This document shows positions 12,015-47,668 of a stretch of DNA of 64,000 bases, in pieces (position 1 is the first letter of the stretch; every line of letters begins with the position of its first letter). The stretch is taken from the NCBI GenBank assembly GCA_022828125.1, contig JAJEJD010000012.1, positions 257,309-321,308 of the forward strand. Direction: 5' to 3'. Below the pieces are notes generated by a model. The model made no database searches. It saw nothing but the letters and a program-made list of their open reading frames with translations, and was not told the DNA's origin. The stretch is from a bacterium. GTDB taxonomy: Bacteria; UBA8248. The position numbers were made by a program, and so were the translations under genes.

Positions 12015-13526
12015 ATGCAAACGAGACCGAACGTCCTCTTGATCAACACCGACCACTGGTCCTCGCCCCTCCTGGGGGCGGCAGGGCATCCCTGCATCCT
12101 GACGCCGACGCTCGACACCTTCTGCAAGAACGGCGTGCGCTTCACGAACGCCTATTCCGAACACCCCTTCTGCATCCCGGCGAGGCGGACGCTGATGACC
12201 GGCGCCAGCGCCCGCGCGCACGGCGACCGCGTGTTCAGCCCGACGATGCTGATGCCCGACCACCTGCCGACGATGGCGCAGACCTTCCGCGACGCGGGCT
12301 ACCAAGCCTACGCGGTCGGGAAGATCCACGTCTATCCCCAGCGCGACCGCATCGGCTTCGACGACGTGATTCTCGACGACGAGGGCCGCTCGATCTACAA
12401 CGTCGCCGACGATTACGACATTTATCTCGGCGACATCGGCCACACGGGCCGCCAGTTCGACCACGGCATGGGGAACAACCAGTACACCTACCGGGCGTGG
12501 CATCTGCCTGAGGCGACGCACCCCACGAACTGGACGACCCGCATGATGGCGCGAACCATAAAGCGGCGCGACCCGAGGCGGCCGGCCTTCTGGTACCTCT
12601 CCTACCGCCATCCGCACCCGCCGCTCGTGCCGCTGCAGGCCTATCTGGACATCTACCGCGAGATTCCCATCGATGAGCCGTTCGTGGGCGAGTGGGCGCG
12701 CGATCGCGGCGAACTCCCCTACAACGCGCAGGCCACCCAGTCGCGCGGCGACCTCTACAATGAGGGGGCGGTTATCGACGCGCGCCGGGCGTTCTACGCG
12801 CTGTGCACCCACATCGAGCACCAGATACGCATCATCATCGGCACCCTGCGCGAGGAGAGCCTCACCAACGACACCATCATCTGCTTCACCTCCGACCACG
12901 GCGACATGCTCGGCAACCACGGCATGTGGGCCAAGCGCGTCTTCTACGAGTATTCCGCCGGAATCCCGATGATCCTGGTGGGCCTCCCGGACGATGCGCG
13001 CGTAGGCAATAACCGGGTCGACGACCGCCTCGTGGGACTTCAGGATGTGATGCCCACCCTGCTCGATCTGTGCGGCATCGATATCCCCGAGACGGTGGAG
13101 GGCATCTCGATGGTGGGCGAGGAGAGGCGGGAATTCCTCTTCGGCGAGGCGGGCGAGGACGCGCATTCCTCGCGCATGATCCACGACGGACGCCACAAAC
13201 TCATCTACTACCCGGTCGGGCATTACTTCCAGCTCTTCGATTTAGCAGAAGACCCGAATGAAATGGTGGATCTCTTCAGAGACCCCGCCTACGCCGACGT
13301 GCTCGCCCGGCTGACCGAAACGCTGGAGGGGCAGATGTACGGAAGCGACGAGAAATGGCTGGATGACGGAAAGCTCGTCGGCGAGCCGGCCCGGCGGTTC
13401 CAGCCCGGCCCCGACCGCACGCTGTCCGCCATGCGGGGAGACCAGTGGCCCTTCCCGCCCGCCACCGAAGAAGGTTTTCTCGAATGGTTCCCGGAGACGA
13501 AGAGCGAGGAGGGTGGAGGTTGTTGA
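12015..13526 (+). CDS. Sulfatase (Cys-type, formylglycine-dependent)
   Basis: 503-aa alkaline-phosphatase-superfamily hydrolase. The activation motif C-x-P-x-R is present as CIPAR at Cys53, so an FGE maturase would convert that Cys to formylglycine. Metal-site pieces include NTDHW near the N-terminus, VGKIHVYP, and TSDHGDMLGNHGMWAK. No signal peptide is visible, so it is probably cytoplasmic; substrates may be sulfate esters or phosphonate monoesters as in related choline-sulfatase/PMH-like enzymes. ATG follows GGAGAG. The last codons, GAG GAG GGT GGA GGT TGT TGA, run into the TGTTGAAAAA border of a repeat element, which supplies the stop; the original C-terminus may be altered. Confidence 0.9.
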   Translation: MQTRPNVLLINTDHWSSPLLGAAGHPCILTPTLDTFCKNGVRFTNAYSEHPFCIPARRTLMTGASARAHGDRVFSPTMLMPDHLPTMAQTFRDAGYQAYAVGKIHVYPQRDRIGFDDVILDDEGRSIYNVADDYDIYLGDIGHTGRQFDHGMGNNQYTYRAWHLPEATHPTNWTTRMMARTIKRRDPRRPAFWYLSYRHPHPPLVPLQAYLDIYREIPIDEPFVGEWARDRGELPYNAQATQSRGDLYNEGAVIDARRAFYALCTHIEHQIRIIIGTLREESLTNDTIICFTSDHGDMLGNHGMWAKRVFYEYSAGIPMILVGLPDDARVGNNRVDDRLVGLQDVMPTLLDLCGIDIPETVEGISMVGEERREFLFGEAGEDAHSSRMIHDGRHKLIYYPVGHYFQLFDLAEDPNEMVDLFRDPAYADVLARLTETLEGQMYGSDEKWLDDGKLVGEPARRFQPGPDRTLSAMRGDQWPFPPATEEGFLEWFPETKSEEGGGC

Positions 13527-13803
13527 AAAACCCTTATTCCGTAATTCGGCATATGGGCCGCCAAGGGAGGAAGAAGACAACATTCCCCTCTGTAGAGCAT
13601 TTAACAATCACTCCCCCCTTGAGGGGGAGTCGATGAAGCCGAACGGTTTGTGCGAAGGCTGAATCGGTGGGGGGTGAATCGCGTTTTATCGCCATTCCGA
13701 ATTATACCCCCCACCGGTTCGCTTGCGGGCTTACGCCCTTAGCTCACCGACTCCCCCTCAAGGGGGGAGTGATTTAGTCCGACCCACAAGGGCTTTTTCA
13801 ACA
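13521..13803. repeat. Composite palindromic element bounded by TGTTGAAAAA/TTTTTCAACA
   Basis: Left border TGTTGAAAAACCC (13521-13533) and right border GGGCTTTTTCAACA (13790-13803) are inverted repeats. Between them is a complete 160-bp inner element (13611-13770) plus a purine-rich spacer. Same-type borders recur at 16520-16532, 16628-16640, 23276-23288, 47393-47613, 53782-53955 and 60991-61003. No transposase lies inside, so this is a non-autonomous, MITE-like or REP-like unit. It overlaps the sulfatase stop codon. Confidence 0.75.
13611..13770. repeat. 160-bp inner element, copy 1 (reverse orientation)
   Basis: Ends CTCCCCCCTTGAGGGGGAGT and CTCCCCCTCAAGGGGGGAGT are each palindromic and inverted to one another. 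The interior (GAATCGGTGGGGGG, ATTTTATCGCCATTCCGAAT) matches the copies at 47422-47580 and 60791-60950 but in the opposite orientation. Noncoding; no frame is conserved among copies. Confidence 0.85.
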
Positions 13804-13811
13804 GGCCCGAG

Positions 13812-13872
13812 CCGGCGGGAGTGCGAACCCGCCTCCGCTAGGCTTCCGTCGCGAGCGTCTACGCGCGCCTAG
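13812..13872 (-). repeat. Degenerate copy of the tmRNA 3' end (possible att remnant)
   Basis: These 61 bases match 14742-14799, the last part of the tmRNA gene, at about 90 percent by eye in the same orientation. Shared blocks include CGGCGGGA, CGAACCCGC and AGGCTTCCGTCG, then GAGCGTCTACGCGCG. The copy lacks the CCA end and has a one-base insertion in the T loop, so it is not functional. The stop codon of the NYN gene (13869-13871) lies at its inner edge. Confidence 0.8.
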
Positions 13873-14684
13873 TCATCGAGTTGCGCGCTCTTCACGATGT
13901 ATCCGCCGGATTTTTTGTCGAACTCCAGTTCCAGCATCCCGCGGGCTTTCGCGTCTTCGAGCAAGTGCTTGAACGTCTTGTATCCGTGATAGGACTCGCT
14001 GAATCCCGGCTTGCGGCGTTTCAGGGCCTGTTTCACCATCGATCCCCAGACCTTTTCTTCCTCGCCCCGCTCCCGCGACAGGTCCTCGGTCGTCTCCAGG
14101 ACCAGATTGAGCCCTTCCAGCCGTTTTTCCTCTTCGCCGTCGACGACTTTCTTTCTTCCGGCGCGGGCGGCCGGCCGTTTCCGTTTGGCCTTTCCCTGCT
14201 TTTCGGATTCGCGCATCAAGTCTTCGTAATAGATGAACTCGTCGCAGTTCGAGGTCAGCAAGTCGGAGGTCGAGTTCTTCACGCCGACGCCGACGACCGC
14301 CTTGTTGTTCTCGCGGAGCTTGCTGACCAAAGGCGAAAAATCGGAGTCGCCGCTGATGATCACGAAGGTATCGACGTGCGACTTGGTGTAGCAGAGGTCC
14401 AACGCATCGACGACCATGCGAATGTCGGCGGAGTTCTTGCCGGACCTGCGGACGTGCGGTATTTCGATCAACTCGAAGGCCGCCTCGTGCATGGGCGCCT
14501 TGAACTCCTTGTAGCGCGCCCAATTGCAGTAGGCTTTCTTGACGACAATGCTGCCCCTGAGGAGCAAGCGCTCCAGCACTCTTTGGATATCGAAATCCGC
14601 GTACTTGGCGTCGCGCACGCCCAGGGCGATATTTTCGAAATCACAAAACAGCGCCATGTTCTGAATCGTGCTTTTTTCGGTCAT
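13869..14684 (-). CDS. NYN domain (PIN-like) ribonuclease-type protein with C-terminal LOTUS/OST-HTH-like domain
   Basis: 271 aa. The NYN domain occupies about residues 10-155 with the acidic residues expected for a PIN-like nuclease: ALFCDFENI, SADIRMVVDAL and ISGDSDFSPL. A basic linker (KRKRPAARAGRKK) follows, then a helical C-terminal domain of about 80 residues (VKQALKRRKPGFSE, YHGYKTFKHLLEDAK) resembling OST-HTH/LOTUS RNA-binding domains. ATG 14684 (MTEKSTIQN) is the start; the longer frame upstream runs through the tmRNA gene and is spurious. It is flanked by the tmRNA gene on one side and a damaged copy of the tmRNA 3' end on the other, suggesting arrival on a small integrating element. 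Likely RNA target unknown. Confidence 0.85.
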   Translation of the reverse strand: MTEKSTIQNMALFCDFENIALGVRDAKYADFDIQRVLERLLLRGSIVVKKAYCNWARYKEFKAPMHEAAFELIEIPHVRRSGKNSADIRMVVDALDLCYTKSHVDTFVIISGDSDFSPLVSKLRENNKAVVGVGVKNSTSDLLTSNCDEFIYYEDLMRESEKQGKAKRKRPAARAGRKKVVDGEEEKRLEGLNLVLETTEDLSRERGEEEKVWGSMVKQALKRRKPGFSESYHGYKTFKHLLEDAKARGMLELEFDKKSGGYIVKSAQLDD

Positions 14685-14733
14685 TTGAACTCCCGTCCGG
14701 GCGGCGGCGCACCGCGCCGCGAGTATTGTCATC

Positions 14734-15094
14734 TGGTGGAGGCGGCGGGAATCGAACCCGCGTCCGAAAGGCTTCCGTCGTGAGCGTCTACGCGCGTAGC
14801 CGGTGGTGAGGGTTTCGCCCGGTCTCAAGCCCACCGGCGGGCCATCCTCCGGGCTAGTCCGATTCAAATTCGCCTAGCAGGCTCCGGACCGAAACCTGGG
14901 TCGGCTAGTCCGCATCATGACGTTCCACACCCCGCCCGCGGACGAGGAGAGGGGGAACGCTCGCTAGCGTCTAGGCCGCGAGAGCCAGCTCGTTATCGGC
15001 TGGTGTGATTTTGCCACATTGATAACGGGGCCAAGTGGCGTCCCCGGCGCGCAGCTCAGACTTCAAATCCTCCCGTCGAAACCGGATCGCCCCC
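14734..15094 (-). ncRNA. ssrA: Transfer-messenger RNA (tmRNA)
   Basis: 361 nt, rescuing stalled ribosomes with SmpB. The 5' end GGGGGCGATCCGGTTTCGAC is the classic tmRNA opening. The 3' end is a T arm (GCGGGTTCGATTCCCGC) followed by CGCCTCC and ACCA. Acceptor strands GGGGGCG and CGCCTCC pair with a G3-U pair, the alanine identity element. The tag frame lies at 14971-15015 and reads GKITPADNELALAA before TAG, with the LAA-type protease-recognised end. The smpB gene is upstream on the same strand with one small gene between. Confidence 0.97.
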
Positions 15095-15958: not shown

Positions 15959-16640
15959 TGTAGAAAAAATCCCCCTCCTCAGGGGATAAAGGCAACCCCC
16001 CCTACCCCCCCTTGTCAGGGGGGTATAAAAAGGCGATGCGCCCCCGCCGGGCTGAGGGGGTTTTGCTTTTTCTTGCCCCCCTGTTAAGGGGGGGTAGGGG
16101 GGGTTGGTTTTCAAGGCGAGTAGAGCGTGCCGAATCCGCCTTTGGCCGTCATTCCGGCGAAAGCCGGAATCCATTTTCGCCTTTGCCTTTTCGCCTCCTC
16201 GCTCGGACGTCTTTACTCCCAGGCGGAGAGGAGCAGAATCGAACACAAAAACGAAAGGCGAATCCTCTGCATTCCGCATCCAGACGCCGCGCGACAACAA
16301 GGTCGTGGCCGCCCCGCCCGATGAAAAGTCAAAATGGATTCCGGCTTTCGCCGGAATGACGAACAAAACCACACCGCCTCATCCTGAGTAGCGGCGAAGC
16401 CGCGTATCGAAGGATGCCCTCTCGCCACGGCGCGAGCCTCCTCGCCCTTCGATACGCCGCCTTCGGCGGCTACTCAGGGTGAGGAAAGAGGTGTCAGCGG
16501 TTTCCAAAGGACACATACAGGGCTTTTTAACAGCCCCTTGGGGGGGAGTGATTGGTTGGCGCTCTGCAAGGGATGAGTAAAGTTTCATCCCTCCCCGGTC
16601 GGCTACATATCTTGAATCACGAAATCCGGCTTTTTCAACA
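15959..16640. repeat. Cluster of four dispersed-repeat families, no gene
   Basis: Fills almost all of the 860-base gap before rnr. Contents in order: a worn TTGTAGAAAAAATCC border; a C/G-run element at 15992-16107; inverted ATTCCGGC-GAAA-GCCGGAAT units at 16148-16173 and 16335-16360; a CCTCATCCTGAGTAG...TATCGAAGG unit at 16377-16416 and its inverted mate at 16444-16484; then right borders GGGCTTTTTAACA (16520-16532) and GGCTTTTTCAACA (16628-16640). Open frames here only reflect repeat sequence. Confidence 0.8.
15992..16107. repeat. C/G-run palindromic element, copy A
   Basis: Starts CAACCCCCCCTACCCCCCC and ends with the inverted form GGGGGGGTAGGGGGGGTTG, with a partly conserved interior of about 70 bases (CGCCCCCGCCGGGCTGAGG). 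Other copies: 49756-49872, 53807-53924, a short form at 36435-36480, and split halves at 60726-60759 and 61005-61102. Confidence 0.85.
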
Positions 16641-16683
16641 AGCCCATAAGGGCTGAGAATTTAAACTCAGGCGTTTTTGATCC

Positions 16684-18966
16684 TCAGCGGCGTCTCCCCC
16701 GCCTGGGCGACGCATTTCCCCTCTTCCTGCGCCGGGGAGCGGGGGATTTCTCCTTGCGCGGGCGGCGGGTGCCCGCGAGGTTCGCCGCGCGGCGCGATTC
16801 GGCCGCATCACCGACCACCTCCCGCGTCCCGCCCGCCATGAGCTGAAACGTGACGCGGCGCGACGCCAGGTCCACACCCTCTACCCGCACGGTGACGGGA
16901 TCCCCAAGACGGAACCGCCGGCCCGTCCTCCGGCCCAGGACCGCGTGTTCCTCGGGGATGAAGGCGTAATAGTCGTCCGTCATGAATTCGAGGGGAACCA
17001 TGCCCTCAACGTATATATCTTCCAACTCCACGAAAACACCGAAATTCGCGACGCCCGAAACGTGGCCGCGAAAGCGCTCGCCGACTTTATCGCGCATGAA
17101 GAGCGCCTTCATGAAATCCACCATCTCGCGCGAGGCGGCCTCCGCCACCCGGTCTCGCTCTGAAATATCGCGGCAAAGGGCGGCGAGGGGCTTCGCCTGC
17201 GGTTTGCGCTTGTCGCGCATGAGCCTCCCGAGCCTCCTGTGGACGCACAGGTCCGCATAGCGGCGGATGGGCGAGGTGAAGTGCGTGTAGCGCTCGAAGC
17301 CAAGCCCGAAGTGGAGAGCGGGAGCGGCCTCATAGCGCGCGAGCTTCATGCTTCTCAAGGCGGCGAAATTCACGTAACGCTCCACGTCCGAGCCGCGCAC
17401 GGCGTCGAACACCTCCTGAAACCCGCCCGGCCGCTTGAGCGCTTCCAAGCGGGGGGCCTTCAGGCCCAGTTTGGAGAGGATCGCCCTCAGACCTTCCAGG
17501 TTCTCCTCGGCAGGAGGCTCGTGGACGCGGAAGACCGAAGCGCCGCCCGCCTCGGCGAGATATTCCGCCACCGCCCGGTTCGCCGCCAGCATGCACTCCT
17601 CGATGAGCCGGTGCGCGGATGTCCTCGGCGCGCGCGCAACTCCCGTCGGCATCCCCTCCCCATCGAGCAGCACCTGCGCTTCGGGCAGGTCGAAATCGAG
17701 ACTCCCCCGGCGCATGCGTTCCGCGTGGAGCTTATCCGCAAGGGCCGAGAGTTCCCGCAGCGGCGCTTCGAGCGCGCGGGCGCATTCGGCCTCGTCTTTC
17801 TCGGGAATTTCAGTGCCTTCGAGAACGGCGGCCGCACCGCGATAGGTCAGAGAAGCGCGCGAGCGGATGCGCGCGAAGGTGAGCCGCATCCCCGTCCGGT
17901 TTCCGTAGCGGTCGAAATCAATAAAAATGCTCAAGGTCCTGCGAACGGCCCCCTCGCGCAGCGAGCACACCTCGCCCGTCAAACGGGGCGGCAACATGGG
18001 CACCGCCCGGTCCGGCAGATAGACGCTCGTCCCCCGGTCGCGGGCTTCTTTATCTATCGCGCCGCCCTCTTTCACGTAATGGCCCACGTCGGCGATGTGG
18101 ACGCCGAGGCGGCAACCGTTTCCGATTTTTTCAATCGAGACCGCGTCGTCGCGGTCCCTCGCGTCGAACGGGTCAATGGTGAACGCGCACAGATCCCTTA
18201 AATCCTCCACACCTTCCGGGAAAGGATCGTCTTCCCCGGGCGGAGAGAGCCTCTTTTCCTCCTCCAGCACTTTTTTCGGGAAATCCTCGCGTATCCCGTG
18301 CTTGGCGAGCACCATCCGCCCTTCGGCGGCGGGGTCCTCGGGATAGCCGAACGAGCGCAGAATGCGCCCTCGGGCGGGTTCATTACGCGCCGGATAGCGG
18401 GTGATCTCGACCTCCACCCATTCGCCCCGCCTGGCTCCTTCCCGGCTCCCCGCGCCCAGCACCACGAGGTGCGGTATACGCTCTTGCTGGGGCTCCACCC
18501 ACGCGCTCCGGCCCTCCACGCAGAGCCTGCCCACCAGGGTTTCGTGCGCGCGCTCCACCACGTCGAGCACGCTCCCCTCGCGCCTCCCGTCGGGATGGAC
18601 CTTCTCCACCCGGGCGGATACCAGATCGCCGTCCATCGCGCCCCGGGTGCGGGTTTTCTTGATCATGATGTCGGGGGATTTTTCCTCACCCTCGACCCGG
18701 CCCGGCGCAACGAACCCGTAGCCCTGCGCGTGCCCCCGGAAGACGCCCTGATAGATGGAGAGGGAACCCGGCGTCGAGTAGCGGCCGCGAACGCGGACGA
18801 GCGCGCCCTCTTCCGCCATGGCGCGCAGGCGCTTCCTGAGCGCGGGCCGCACGGCGGCGGGTACTTCGAGCAGGCGCACGAGTTCACGCACGGCCATCGG
18901 CCTGCCCTCTTTGGCGATCAGGCGCTGTATCTTCTTGTCGTCCGGAATCTTTAAGGTTCGCTTCAC
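16684..18966 (-). CDS. rnr: Ribonuclease R
   Basis: 760-aa 3'-5' exoribonuclease of the RNB family that degrades structured RNA, including mRNAs freed by tmRNA. Order: N-terminal winged helix (REGRPMAVRELVRLLEVP-like), cold-shock domains, the RNB catalytic core with DPFDARDRDDAVSIEK (the four metal-binding Asp), then the S1 domain (GERFRGHVSGVANFGVFVEL) and a basic tail KRGNASPRRGRRR. GTG 18966 is the start. It follows the phosphatase gene by 12 bases. Placed one operon away from smpB/ssrA, its functional partners. Confidence 0.96.
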   Translation of the reverse strand: MKRTLKIPDDKKIQRLIAKEGRPMAVRELVRLLEVPAAVRPALRKRLRAMAEEGALVRVRGRYSTPGSLSIYQGVFRGHAQGYGFVAPGRVEGEEKSPDIMIKKTRTRGAMDGDLVSARVEKVHPDGRREGSVLDVVERAHETLVGRLCVEGRSAWVEPQQERIPHLVVLGAGSREGARRGEWVEVEITRYPARNEPARGRILRSFGYPEDPAAEGRMVLAKHGIREDFPKKVLEEEKRLSPPGEDDPFPEGVEDLRDLCAFTIDPFDARDRDDAVSIEKIGNGCRLGVHIADVGHYVKEGGAIDKEARDRGTSVYLPDRAVPMLPPRLTGEVCSLREGAVRRTLSIFIDFDRYGNRTGMRLTFARIRSRASLTYRGAAAVLEGTEIPEKDEAECARALEAPLRELSALADKLHAERMRRGSLDFDLPEAQVLLDGEGMPTGVARAPRTSAHRLIEECMLAANRAVAEYLAEAGGASVFRVHEPPAEENLEGLRAILSKLGLKAPRLEALKRPGGFQEVFDAVRGSDVERYVNFAALRSMKLARYEAAPALHFGLGFERYTHFTSPIRRYADLCVHRRLGRLMRDKRKPQAKPLAALCRDISERDRVAEAASREMVDFMKALFMRDKVGERFRGHVSGVANFGVFVELEDIYVEGMVPLEFMTDDYYAFIPEEHAVLGRRTGRRFRLGDPVTVRVEGVDLASRRVTFQLMAGGTREVVGDAAESRRAANLAGTRRPRKEKSPAPRRRKRGNASPRRGRRR

Positions 18967-18978
18967 GAGCGATTCAAC

Positions 18979-19641
18979 TTATTCCACTTCCCGCGAGGAA
19001 ACCTGGTGGCATTCCACGAGTTCGCCCTCGGCGAGCTGCACGCATGTCAGGCGCCCGCCGTGCACGGCGCTCGTGTCGATGCCCAGATAAAAGGGAAGCT
19101 CGTTTTTTATCTCCCACCCCGGTGTGTGCCCGAACACGACGGGCTTTCCGAAATCGTATTGCGCATGGAAAAACTCTTCCCGTATCCAGACCATATCCAT
19201 CGGGTCCTGACTGTCGATGGGAACGTCCGGCCTCAGGCCCGCATGCACGAAGATGAATCCACGGCTCATATGAATCCATTCGAGAGCGTTCAAGAATTTC
19301 AGATGCTCGGGCGGGAGGTGAACGTCGCCTCTCTCATCACGGTAGTTCTCCAGCGTCGCATCGCCGCCGTTCATGACATAGACACCCGGATAATAGCTCC
19401 CGCCGCCTGCGAGGTAATCCAGGAGCATGTCCTCATGGTTGCCGCGCAGGAACACGGTGTTGGGATATTCACGCTTGAAACCGAGGAGGAACTCGACCAC
19501 GGCCTTGGAATCCCGCCCCCGGTCGATGAAATCGCCGAGAAAGACGATCTCATCCTCTTCCCGGAAGGGCACGCGCTCCACCAGGGCTTCCAGCATATGA
19601 ATCTGGCCGTGGATGTCGCCGACCGCGTAGAGATTGGACAT
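18979..19641 (-). CDS. PPP-family metallophosphatase (serine/threonine phosphatase or ApaH-like)
   Basis: 220 aa. All PPP motifs are present in order: GDIHGQ, GDFIDRGRDS, GNHEDM, VHAGLRP and FGHTP. This is the bacterial PrpA/PrpE type that can act on phosphoproteins or dinucleoside polyphosphates. ATG 19641 (MSNLYAVGDIHG) follows GGAGGC; an in-frame ATG at 19725 has no ribosome site. It precedes rnr by 12 bases. A 59-base copy of its 5' end lies just after polA (20308-20366), which indicates that it once directly followed polA before the hicBA segment was inserted. Confidence 0.9.
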   Translation of the reverse strand: MSNLYAVGDIHGQIHMLEALVERVPFREEDEIVFLGDFIDRGRDSKAVVEFLLGFKREYPNTVFLRGNHEDMLLDYLAGGGSYYPGVYVMNGGDATLENYRDERGDVHLPPEHLKFLNALEWIHMSRGFIFVHAGLRPDVPIDSQDPMDMVWIREEFFHAQYDFGKPVVFGHTPGWEIKNELPFYLGIDTSAVHGGRLTCVQLAEGELVECHQVSSREVE

Positions 19642-19749
19642 GCAGAACGCGCGCCTCCCGGAGAACCCGACCGTGCCGAGGAAAGCTACGAACCCGGGCC
19701 CGTGGCCGGCGGCATGTGGCGTCAAGGGGTGTCATGCCGTTTTTTTGTT

Positions 19750-19962
19750 TCACAAAAGCCTGCGGAATTCGTCGACGCTCAACCCGGCGGCCCTGACAAT
19801 TACCCCCATCGTGATCGCATTCACGGGGTTGTTCCTCGGGATCGTCAACACGCGAACGCCATCCGACATCACGATGTGCTTGCCTTGGCGAAGTATGCGG
19901 AAGCCTGCCTTTTCCAGGGCGCGCACCGCATGCAGATGGTTGACCCCCGGGATCTTCGGCAC
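19750..19962 (-). CDS. hicA: HicA-type mRNA interferase toxin
   Basis: 70-aa YcfA/HicA double-stranded RNA-binding fold. GTG 19962 overlaps the hicB stop codon region (GTGGCCGTCTAG then GTGCCG is read from the end of hicB). Motifs: VPKIPGVNHLHAVRALEKAG, the catalytic His in RQGKHIVM, and LTIPRNNPVNAITMGVIVR. Usual length is 55-80 aa. The gene order is antitoxin first, the reverse of the classical hicA-hicB order but common in this subfamily. Confidence 0.9.
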   Translation of the reverse strand: MPKIPGVNHLHAVRALEKAGFRILRQGKHIVMSDGVRVLTIPRNNPVNAITMGVIVRAAGLSVDEFRRLL

Positions 19963-19963
19963 G

Positions 19964-20161
19964 CTAGACGGCCACTTCGATTTCCCGTATATCTCCGCCC
20001 TCCAGGAGATCCTCCACGGCGCTGAGATATTCCCTGGCGGCAGTTTCGATGTTGGAGATCGCCTCGGCCTCCGTTTCTCCCTGTGAGCAACAACCCGGCA
20101 GGCCCGGTACCCACACGCTGTAGCCCTCATCGGAACGGTGAAGAACGATTTTGTACTTCAT
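19964..20161 (-). CDS. hicB: HicB-type antitoxin
   Basis: 65 aa, MKYKIVLHRSDEGYSVWVPG then LPGCCSQGETEAEAISNIETA, the partial RNase-H-like HicB fold (EGY..PG.PGC.S.G.T..EA..N..EA). No DNA-binding helix is visible after this domain (ends IREIEVAV), so repression, if any, would rely on the short form. ATG 20161 follows GGAGGCGCGCC. It is coupled to hicA by near-overlap. The pair sits in a 650-base insertion between polA and the phosphatase gene. Confidence 0.88.
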   Translation of the reverse strand: MKYKIVLHRSDEGYSVWVPGLPGCCSQGETEAEAISNIETAAREYLSAVEDLLEGGDIREIEVAV

Positions 20162-20307
20162 GGCGCGCCTCCTTGCCTCAAAGTTTCGGATCATCAGGCA
20201 TTCTATGTTTCCCTGCCCGGCTTTTCAACGACGGTTTGACGGAGCCGGGTACGGCACGGCGTCCGGATGAGTTTTCTTGAAGGAGACTGCCGGGGCGCCC
20301 GGCCGGC

Positions 20308-20366
20308 GAATCTGGCCGTAGATGTCGCCGACCGCGTAGAGATTGGACATGCCGAACGTACGCCTC
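20308..20366 (-). pseudogene. Duplicated 5' fragment of the phosphatase gene
   Basis: Matches 19599-19656 with only a handful of differences, including ribosome site, ATG (20350) and the first codons, MSNLYAVGDIYGQI. It then diverges and stops after about 41 codons. The key His of GDIHG is Tyr here. It ends 2 bases from the polA stop codon. A non-functional leftover of the insertion of hicBA. Confidence 0.85.
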
Positions 20367-20368
20367 CG

Positions 20369-23101
20369 CTACTTGAGCTCGCCCCAGTTCTCGCCCGTGC
20401 TCACGTCCACGTCGAGCGGAACGTGCAGGGGGGTCGCGCCGCGCATCTCCTCTGCGACCAAGGCGGCCACGGCCTCGATTTCTGCGGGCGGTATCTCGAA
20501 CAAGAGTTCATCGTGCACCTGCACGAGCATGCGCGCCTGCTTCTCTTCTCTCTTCAGGCGATCGGCGATGGCTATCATCGCGAGCTTGATGACGTCGGCG
20601 GCGCTCCCCTGGATGACGGAGTTCACCGCCGTCCGTTCGGCGGCGTTTTTCGCGTTGCGGTTCCGGCTGTTCAGATCGGGCAGATACCTGCGCCGGCCCA
20701 TGATGGTGGAAACGTAGCCGCGCTCGCGCCCTCCCTCGATGGTCTCATCCACGAAGGCGGGCACGGCGGCGAAACGCTCGAAATAGGTGTCGATGAACGA
20801 GCGCGCCTCGGACTGGGGGATGCCGATGGCCTGGGAGAGGCCGAAGGCGCCCTGCCCGTAGATGATGCCGAAATTCACCGCCTTGGCGACGCGGCGCATC
20901 TCGGAGTCGACACCTTCGAGCGGCACGCCGTAGACGGCCGATGCGGTCGTGGCGTGGATGTCCTCCCCCTTGCCGAAGGCGTCGACGAGGGCCGGGTCGT
21001 TCGTGAAGTGCGCCAGCACTCTTAATTCGATCTGGCTGTAGTCCGCAGACAAGAGCTTCCAGCCCTCCTCGGGCAGGAAGGCCCGGCGTATCTGGCGGCC
21101 CAACTCCGTGCGGATGGGGATGTTCTGCAGATTGGGGTCCGAACCGCTCAGGCGGCCCGTGGCGGCGACCGTCTGGTTGAAGCGCGCGTGGATGCGGCCC
21201 GTCTGCGCGTTCACGAGTTCGGGCAGGGTGTCCACGTAGGTGCTCTTGAGCTTCGACAGCTGCCGGAAGTTCAGAATCTCCTGGGGCAGGGGGTGCTGCG
21301 GCGCCAGCCGCTCCAGCGTGTCGATGTCGGTGGAAGGCCCCGTTTTCGTTCGCTTGATCACGGGCAAGTTCAGCTTTTCGAACAGGATGACGCGCAACTG
21401 CTGGGTGGAATTGATGTTGAACTCCTCGCCCGCCAGCCCGTGGATGTCGCTCGTCATTTGCTCCAGGCGCGCTTCGAGTTCCTTGCCCATATTCTGCAGG
21501 AATTCCCGATCCAGCCGGATGCCCGCGCGCTCCATTTCGAGCAGGACGCGCAGGAGGGGGACTTCCAATTCCTCGAAGAGATTCATCAGCCCGTCTTTTT
21601 CGAGCTGCGGAGCCATCTCCAGGGCCAGGCGGAAAGTGATGTCCGCATCCTGGCAGGCGTAGGGAGCCGCCGCCTCGACCGGCACGTGTGAGAAGGGAAT
21701 CTCCTTGGCGCCCTTGCCGCACAGATCGGCGTACTTGATGGTCGTCACGCCGAAATACTCCTGCGCCAGATGGTCCATCCCGTGGCTCCTGCGGCTCGAA
21801 AGCAGGAGGTAGGAGGCGAGCATGGTGTCGAACAGGGGGCCGCGAACCTCGTGGCCCGTCTCTTTGAGCACCGCGATGTCGTATTTGATGTTCTGGCCGA
21901 TTTTCTCAATATCGGGCGATTCGAGCAGCGGCGAGACTTCGGCGAGCACGTCTTCGAGTGAAAGCTGTGGGCCTGCGTCCATCATCTCGTGCCCCACCGG
22001 GACGTAGAACGCGCGGCCCGCAGCGGCGGAGAAGCTGAAGCCAACGACCCGCGCCTTCATGGGGTCGAGCGAGGTGGTTTCCAGGTCGAACGCGAAACGC
22101 CCCGCCTTTTCGAGTTCCGCGAGCATCGACTTGAGATCATCGAGCGTTCGGATGGTGTGGTAGTCGCGCTCCTCCTCTTCGGCTGCGGGATCCGCCTCCC
22201 CGGACGCATCCTCCTCGGCGTCGGACTCGCTGTAGCCGGGGAGTTGTTCGATGATGTTCTTGAATTCCAGTTCATCGACGAAAAGTTTCCGGCCCGCCTC
22301 GATGTCGGCGTCGCCGAGACGGCAGGATTCCAGGTCTCCTTCGAGCGCCAGGTCGCGCTTGATGGTGCAAAGCTCCCGCGAGAGGCGCGCCATATCGACG
22401 TTTTCCTCGATGTTCTCGCGTTGTTTGGGACGCTTTATCTCTTCCGTCGAAGCGAGCACTTCTTCGAGTCCGCCGAACTGCTGTATGAGGGCGACGGCGG
22501 TTTTCTCCCCGATGCCCGGCACGCCGGGGATGTTGTCCGTCGAATCGCCCATCAATGCCTGGACCTCCACGAATTTCTCGGGCGGCACGCCCCATTTCGC
22601 CTCGATCTCCGCAGGCCCCATCTCCTCGTCCTTCATCGGATCCCAGATGCGCACTTTATCGGAGACAAGCTGTGCGAAATCCTTATCCGCGGTCACCAGC
22701 ACGACCTCGAAGTCCTCCGCTTCGGCGCGCGCGGCCAGCGTGCCGATGATGTCGTCCGCCTCGGCCCCGACCTGCACGAGAAGCGGAATGCGCAGCACCT
22801 CGACCACGCGGTGCATGTAGGGGATCTGTTCGACCAGGTCTTCGGGCGCCGCGTCGCGGTTTCCCTTGTAGGCGGGGTATATCTCGTGGCGGAAGGTGGG
22901 TTCGGGGCGGTCGAAGGCGATGGCGACGTATTCGGGCGCGCGCTCGCGGATGACTTTGAGGAGCATTCGGGCGAAGGCCAGCGTGCCGCCCGTGGGCACA
23001 CCCTTCGAGTTCGAGAGACGCTGGCGCATCGTGCCGTAATAGGCCCGGAACATATAGCCCGAGCCGTCGATGAGATAGATTCGCTTCTTGTCTTCCGTCA
23101 T
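20369..23101 (-). CDS. polA: DNA polymerase I
   Basis: 910 aa, full length, three domains. The 5'-3' exonuclease starts RIYLIDGSGYMFRAYYG and keeps VTADKDFAQLV and GDSTDNIPGVPGIGEKTA. The 3'-5' proofreading domain looks active: FAFDLETTSLDP, QNIKYDIAVLK and YACQDADITF carry the metal ligands. The polymerase domain has motif A LLSADYSQIELRVLAHF, motif B RRVAKAVNFGIIYGQGAFGL and motif C VQVHDELLFEIP. ATG 23101 (MTEDKKRIYL) is the start although the frame stays open for 100 codons upstream. First gene of the polA-(hicBA)-phosphatase-rnr run. Confidence 0.97.
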   Translation of the reverse strand: MTEDKKRIYLIDGSGYMFRAYYGTMRQRLSNSKGVPTGGTLAFARMLLKVIRERAPEYVAIAFDRPEPTFRHEIYPAYKGNRDAAPEDLVEQIPYMHRVVEVLRIPLLVQVGAEADDIIGTLAARAEAEDFEVVLVTADKDFAQLVSDKVRIWDPMKDEEMGPAEIEAKWGVPPEKFVEVQALMGDSTDNIPGVPGIGEKTAVALIQQFGGLEEVLASTEEIKRPKQRENIEENVDMARLSRELCTIKRDLALEGDLESCRLGDADIEAGRKLFVDELEFKNIIEQLPGYSESDAEEDASGEADPAAEEEERDYHTIRTLDDLKSMLAELEKAGRFAFDLETTSLDPMKARVVGFSFSAAAGRAFYVPVGHEMMDAGPQLSLEDVLAEVSPLLESPDIEKIGQNIKYDIAVLKETGHEVRGPLFDTMLASYLLLSSRRSHGMDHLAQEYFGVTTIKYADLCGKGAKEIPFSHVPVEAAAPYACQDADITFRLALEMAPQLEKDGLMNLFEELEVPLLRVLLEMERAGIRLDREFLQNMGKELEARLEQMTSDIHGLAGEEFNINSTQQLRVILFEKLNLPVIKRTKTGPSTDIDTLERLAPQHPLPQEILNFRQLSKLKSTYVDTLPELVNAQTGRIHARFNQTVAATGRLSGSDPNLQNIPIRTELGRQIRRAFLPEEGWKLLSADYSQIELRVLAHFTNDPALVDAFGKGEDIHATTASAVYGVPLEGVDSEMRRVAKAVNFGIIYGQGAFGLSQAIGIPQSEARSFIDTYFERFAAVPAFVDETIEGGRERGYVSTIMGRRRYLPDLNSRNRNAKNAAERTAVNSVIQGSAADVIKLAMIAIADRLKREEKQARMLVQVHDELLFEIPPAEIEAVAALVAEEMRGATPLHVPLDVDVSTGENWGELK

Positions 23102-47272: not shown

Positions 47273-47392
47273 GAAATTCTCCGTCGGAACATGAGGTTAC
47301 GTTTTGGAAAAATGGGAATCGCCAAGGCCCAAGAATACGGCATCGCGCCAACGAGGAAAAGCGCGGCCGGAAAAAGCCTTTCGTTTCGGGGC

Positions 47393-47613
47393 TGTTGAAA
47401 AAAGCGGAAAAAAATGAATCACTCCCCCCTTGAGGGGGAGTCGAAGAGCTGAGGGCGTAAGCCCGAAAGCGATTCGGTGGGGGGGCTAATTCGGAATGGC
47501 GATAAAACACATTCTCCCCCCACCGAGTCAGCCTTCGCACAAACCGCTCGGCTTCCTCGACTCCCCCTCAAGGGGGGAGTGATGTCTGCTGTCTCATCAA
47601 GGCTTTTTCAACA
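47393..47613. repeat. Composite element with TGTTGAAAAA borders
   Basis: Left border TGTTGAAAAAAGC (47393-47405), right border GGCTTTTTCAACA (47601-47613). Inside is a full 160-bp family copy at 47422-47580. After it a further fragment (CCCCCTTGAGGGGAGTGG) reaches 47633. Together this explains the 396-base gap 47273-47668; no gene is seen. Confidence 0.8.
47422..47580. repeat. 160-bp inner element, copy 2
   Basis: Begins CTCCCCCCTTGAGGGGGAGT and ends CTCCCCCTCAAGGGGGGAGT. Interior blocks GAGGGCGTAAGCCCG, CTAATTCGGAATGGCGATAA and GCCTTCGCACAAACCGCTCG match copies at 60791-60950 (same orientation) and 13611-13770 (opposite). Confidence 0.85.
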
Positions 47614-47668
47614 ACCCCCTTGAGGGGAGTGGTTGGTTATTCTCAAGGAGGAGTGTTGTCTCGCCTCC

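Follow-up and report, generated by a model that had tools for sequence, protein, structure and literature searches.

A hicBA toxin-antitoxin pair at a polA-phosphatase junction, enclosed by a long duplication of the phosphatase start

By what route do toxin-antitoxin pairs reach chromosomes when no mobile element carries them? The question is raised by a locus in the window (the whole stretch of DNA analysed, 64,000 nt), where a hicBA pair separates polA from a phosphatase gene and the first codons of that gene occur on both sides of the pair. According to the accessible text of a 2020 review (PMC7167474), the mechanisms by which toxin-antitoxin systems move and integrate remain unelucidated.

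The duplicated phosphatase start and the genes it encloses

Read along the minus strand, polA is followed by a copy of the phosphatase start (59-60 nt), hicB, hicA, the phosphatase gene and an RNase R-like gene (Table 1). The polA stop codon (20369-20371) is followed by 1 base, a GGAGG ribosome site, an ATG at 20350 and 14 phosphatase codons (MSNLYAVGDIYGQI), after which an unrelated tail keeps the frame open to 20225. The original prediction had placed this copy 2 bases after the polA stop, a figure corrected here to 1 base, and had described 20308-20366 as a near copy of 19599-19656. The latter observation holds and can be extended. A repeat search of the window returned a direct repeat of 78 nt at 85% identity (19581-19658 and 20290-20367), and self-BLAST a core of 60 nt at 93.3% (19599-19658 and 20308-20367; E approximately 1e-18), of which there are 2 copies only in the 861,308 bases of the window genome that were searched. 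The starts of the two copies are 709 nt apart.

The related genome G003 has an empty site with one copy only, and both copies in the window match it (see below). The polA-side copy is identical to this clean junction at 55 of 59 nt, and one of its 4 differences turns the His of GDIHG into Tyr, whereas the hicA-side copy is identical at 57 of 59 nt (2 differences). The polA-side copy is therefore a dead, decaying stub, and the hicA-side copy belongs to the working gene.

Table 1. Features of the polA-phosphatase junction and its insert, in minus-strand order (positions in the window)
Feature	Position	Strand	Remarks
polA, DNA polymerase I, upstream housekeeping gene	20369..23050	-	PF00476, PF02739, PF01612; 97% identical in G003
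Stub: truncated duplicate of phosphatase start	20309..20367	-	Ribosome site, ATG 20350, 14 codons
Open frame, 41 codons: stub plus unrelated tail	20225..20350	-	
Spacer between stub and cassette, 57 nt	20252..20308		Outside cassette alignment
hicBA cassette	19722..20251	-	Conserved with copies at other loci: G002 84%, G006 84%, G001 89% DNA identity
Promoter-like TTGAAA-17-TAGAAT ahead of hicB, inside cassette	20200..20228	-	Visible in 4/4 cassette copies
hicB, 65-aa antitoxin, ATG 20161 (start by inspection)	19964..20161	-	PF15919
hicA, 70-aa toxin (HicA match weak), GTG 19962 (start by inspection)	19750..19962	-	PF07927
Spacer between cassette and leader, 49 nt	19673..19721		
Phosphatase leader, 20 nt	19653..19672	-	19/20 identical to phosphatase leaders of G001, G004; absent from clean junctions
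Intact repeat copy: ribosome site, ATG, first phosphatase codons	19599..19658	-	Repeat search, self-BLAST
Phosphatase, 220 aa, calcineurin-like phosphoesterase, ApaH/PrpE-like, intact	18979..19641	-	PF00149
RNase R-like gene, downstream conserved neighbour	16684..18966	-	PF00773; adjoins phosphatase in relatives

The HicB product scores above the Pfam cut-off (36.5 bits vs 27), while HicA falls below it (21.9 bits vs 27, E 2e-4) and had no match in NCBIfam, PADLOC or PDB; it carries GKH residues, which we take to resemble the HicA His motif. The hicA start lies 1 base after the hicB stop. The pair is like a HicAB type II toxin-antitoxin system in its HicB family match, its small HicA-like partner and its tight arrangement with a promoter-like element of its own, but differs in that the antitoxin gene comes first and the HicA match is below the Pfam cut-off. 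The NCBIfam models matched by the phosphatase, for bis(5'-nucleosyl)-tetraphosphatases and for protein phosphatases, all score under their cut-offs. Among the ORFs of the insert (19659-20308) there is no integrase, recombinase, transposase or other mobility gene, and the repeat search of the region revealed no inverted repeats at the cassette ends. Neither the 57-nt nor the 49-nt spacer found a convincing match beyond itself in 21 genomes.

The junction and the cassette in related genomes

Six congeneric genomes (G001-G006), all draft metagenome assemblies with one genome per species, were compared. In G002, G003 and G005 the polA stop is followed by 18 bases and then the phosphatase ATG, with neither stub nor hicBA. 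DNA identity places G003 as sister to the window genome (polA 94.8%, phosphatase 94.5%), with G002 the most distant from it in polA. An ancestral polA-phosphatase junction, as originally predicted, is thus present in three congeners, and the proposal that hicBA had been placed into it, leaving the repeat behind, is borne out by clean relatives without either, the sister included. The clean junctions indicate, therefore, that hicBA was gained at this locus and that the fragment is its scar. It had also been suggested that co-variation of stub and hicBA be checked across relatives: they co-vary in 6 of the 7 genomes, the seventh, G006, being indeterminate. At this locus the gain of a toxin-antitoxin pair is well supported, and the scar is a dated one.

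The G001 and G004 junctions have neither stub nor hicBA, and hold other DNA. In G001 this amounts to about 5 kb (L041 1340-6490) with a LuxR-type regulator, a TbpB-like lipoprotein and a Slam-like protein; in G004 genes similar to those of the G001 island are split over two contigs. The TbpB-like and Slam-like proteins of the G001 stretch represent a surface lipoprotein system in a Nitrospinota-like bacterium. In G006 (L034 1-414), the first 9 codons of the phosphatase follow polA and then give way to unrelated DNA; 366 nt later the contig stops. The phosphatase was not found in the genome, and the junction may be a rearrangement or an assembly chimera. The opposite strand of the joined DNA reads, by eye, like a cobalamin-synthesis membrane protein. 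In family-level relatives, the gap between polA and the phosphatase carries an NYN-domain gene in G011, a similar one in G015 (by eye), a cyclic-nucleotide-binding protein in G007 and no clear gene in G013, and none of these four gaps has a copy of the phosphatase start. The polA-phosphatase junction is a recurrent landing place.

The hicBA pair is not new to the genus, as close copies occur elsewhere in G001, G002 and G006. The conserved unit is about 500 bp long and extends from just ahead of the promoter-like element to just past the hicA stop. In G002 and G006 it lies between a gene for a 341-aa protein and leucyl aminopeptidase (the latter named by eye), a site unoccupied in both the window genome and G003, and in G001 between katG and atp genes (named by eye). 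The cassette thus occupies three loci across four genomes, with no mobility gene inside. Values of dN/dS are 0.03-0.08 for hicB (three comparisons, with the copies in G001, G002 and G006) and 0.045-0.055 for hicA (two comparisons, with G002 and G006; hicA is frameshifted in G001), so that both genes have been maintained by selection.

The G002 copy of the cassette has informative flanks. Aligned with the empty site of G003, the left flank gives a match of 49 nt and the right flank one of approximately 60 nt. The two matches overlap by about 33 nt, a stretch that is therefore present to either side of hicBA; either flank-to-empty-site score was reached by 0 of 2000 shuffles. The direct left-to-right comparison is weaker (score 26, shuffle maximum 27, p approximately 0.001). 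These flanks form a second long target duplication around the same cassette. The automatic repeat test gave no match at the hicBA sites of G001, G002 or G006; the G006 site has lost most of its left copy, and a 62-nt repeat close to the G001 pair stands beside it without enclosing it.

Route of entry and alternative explanations

The hicBA cassette was probably inserted at the ancestral polA-phosphatase junction after the split from G003, duplicating the phosphatase start in the process. As reconstructed from the genome comparison, the most likely route is recombination that was homologous on one side only. A self-contained cassette would have entered the junction after the two lineages separated, on incoming DNA that carried hicBA beside the phosphatase start of an island-bearing congener. 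One side would have formed by homologous recombination within the phosphatase, the other by illegitimate joining near codon 14 of the resident phosphatase. What remains would be a resident start cut short, followed by the cassette, a leader of donor type and an intact phosphatase gene. The donor-type signal is short, a leader of approximately 34 nt. In the 966 kb scanned at up to 3 mismatches, its sequence, GGTCGG[A/G]TTCTCCGGGAGGC, was confined to the window, G001 and G004, and the TGC before the phosphatase ATG of the window matches G004, not G003. Since the leader is shared by the two island-bearing congeners and missing from the clean junctions, the one-sided homologous route is favoured over a staggered break. 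A donor carrying hicBA next to a phosphatase of this type was not found among the genomes compared. Homology-facilitated illegitimate recombination (de Vries and Wackernagel) is reportedly known from transformation experiments; one homologous and one illegitimate junction would give the structure of the present locus, although the process is experimental there and would be deduced from genomes here.

Tandem duplication of the junction alone can be ruled out because the insert is a cassette found at other loci. A staggered double-strand break with ends about 60 nt apart, filled in while capturing foreign hicBA, is rather unlikely. Both copies would then be resident, and no homologous donor would be involved. 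Such a break accounts for two direct copies around the insert, each joined to its correct outer neighbour, and for the same pattern in G002, but the right side, with a leader that matches G001 and G004 and not the clean junction, is unlike resident DNA alone. Duplications of gene ends are typical of integrase-type elements, and the window also has a duplicated tmRNA 3' end around an NYN gene (see below). It is nevertheless very unlikely that the locus is what remains of such an element, with the phosphatase start as attachment site and the rest, including the integrase, deleted: the 709-nt interval has no integrase or other mobility gene, the 5' start of a gene is an uncommon attachment site, and the cassette copies in congeneric genomes show no common attachment sequence. 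No integrase-bearing element was seen at the junction in G001-G005 (G004 over two contigs).

Transposition of hicBA mediated by an IS or MITE is scarcely probable. The left end of the cassette does resemble a motif, GTTGAAAAGCCGG, with 4 matches in the window at up to 3 mismatches where 0.1 are expected, but there is no transposase, the cassette ends have no inverted repeats, and 60 nt is far beyond the length of IS target duplications. An artefact of metagenome assembly is improbable in the extreme, even though the genomes are draft bins and the G006 junction looks chimeric, as the locus lies within a contig of 389,501 bases, the interior is conserved coding sequence, and the two copies differ at 4 sites and so cannot be one read path used twice.

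Insertion of a cassette by one-sided homology, the reading preferred here, has a precedent in its outcome. Insertion with long target duplication is described, in the accessible parts of the sources, for restriction-modification genes, mainly of Helicobacter pylori (Nobusato et al. 2000, Gene 259:99; PMC1643837, PMC3874152). The present locus, with single-copy empty sites in relatives, 60-nt direct copies and no transposase, integrase or terminal inverted repeats, appears to match this class, the movement itself being deduced from genomes. As far as those accounts go, the two share the lack of a mobility gene, a long and variable direct copy of the target, an empty site in a close relative and an addiction-type pair. 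They differ in that the module here is a type II toxin-antitoxin system in a Nitrospinota-like genome and not a restriction-modification system, and in that the scar is old (93%) and accompanied by a leader pointing to a homologous donor. A comparable position is occupied by the ccd toxin-antitoxin system at the folA-apaH junction of E. coli (PMC7167474, PMC7232551), which, in the accessible parts of these papers, likewise lies next to a phosphatase of the ApaH kind, in a plastic housekeeping junction, and is absent from relatives. That system belongs to another toxin family, and the descriptions of it in those parts do not mention a long target duplication. A full-text literature search, with most subscription journals outside it, found no report of long target duplication for toxin-antitoxin pairs. 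The class of mechanism has been described before; in the literature searched, it was not met for toxin-antitoxin pairs. The present case carries a mechanism put forward for restriction-modification genes over to a second kind of addiction module.

Flanking repeats at other toxin loci and elsewhere in the genome

Loci from other genomes were surveyed with fixed criteria: direct repeats of at least 30 nt and at least 72% identity, E at most 1e-3, and the two copies lying to either side of HicA, no more than 1600 nt away. In a first set (30 loci fetched, 6 dropped as too short), 4 of 24 loci were positive, compared with 5 of 300 random windows. Among 40 new loci in a second set, 7 were positive, vs 4 of 209 control windows taken from those same stretches of sequence (Fisher p 3e-4), and the counts were 5 of 40 vs 2 of 209 when at least 50 nt and at least 75% identity were required (Fisher p 1.4e-3); three of these 40 loci were cut short by a contig end, one of the three being positive. 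Together, 11 of 64 HicA loci and 9 of 509 control windows were positive, counts that are not fully independent because several loci share genomes.

In one of the clear cases, a copy of the first 29 codons of nuoG (87 nt, 91%) separates nuoF from hicA and an intact nuoG follows, the same architecture as at the polA-phosphatase locus of the window. In another the 3' end of a PEPCK gene is duplicated (71 nt, 98.6%), and in a further case the start of a TPR gene (75 nt, 93%). Less clear cases involve the ends of glycosyltransferase genes, intergenic copies and a tRNA-like 3' end, and three are of 31 nt only. The 30 GNAT loci yielded 0 positives. VapC, considered as a second toxin family with this pattern, is only weakly shown to have it (2 of 26 loci, none strict, p approximately 0.1; 4 dropped as short). 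Control repeats were few in the background scan, and one of them, an 83-nt direct repeat in an unrelated genome (G064; L226 41-123 and 1012-1094), likewise surrounds a PIN-type toxin-antitoxin-like pair (identified by eye).

It is possible, and is put forward tentatively, that long target duplication is a main way in which chromosomal HicAB pairs, and perhaps others, settle in housekeeping junctions as autonomous units. The duplication would arise where incoming DNA recombines by homology at one end and is joined illegitimately at the other, with the neighbouring gene rebuilt from the donor and the resident stub left behind. The dated empty site, the second site of the cassette and the excess of scars at HicA loci make the question of entry testable by sequence survey.

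A genome-wide excess of such repeats in the window genome was not found: it has 8 unique two-copy repeats of at least 40 nt in 861 kb, and three unrelated genomes (400 kb) have 2 two-copy pairs and one three-copy pair, which is about as frequent. Motifs like TTGTTGAAAAAGCCGGA, which resembles the left end of the cassette, occur at 13520-13536, 16625-16641, 47392-47408 and 47598-47614 of the window. The tmRNA gene (14734-15094, minus strand) also has a second copy of its 3' end (13809-13867 and 14739-14796; 59 nt, 88%), which lies beyond an NYN-domain gene (approximately 13869-14687). The same arrangement and repeat occur in G001 and G002; it is therefore older than the hicBA insertion, and was rejected as a recent parallel to it. 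In G000:C31 another NYN-domain gene lies between two copies (L217 14679-14733 and 15519-15573; 55 nt, 89%) of the 3' end of an arginase-family gene; an NYN gene is also present in the polA-phosphatase junction of G011. A mutase-like 3' end has an 88-nt copy around a periplasmic binding protein gene (G000:C19; L207 14796-14883 and 16149-16234). Finally, an abundant repeat family (L203, L211, L245, L249, L257), rich in CCCCCCTGACAAGGGGGGG-like stretches, gave approximately 75-120 matches in 861 kb for most pairs.
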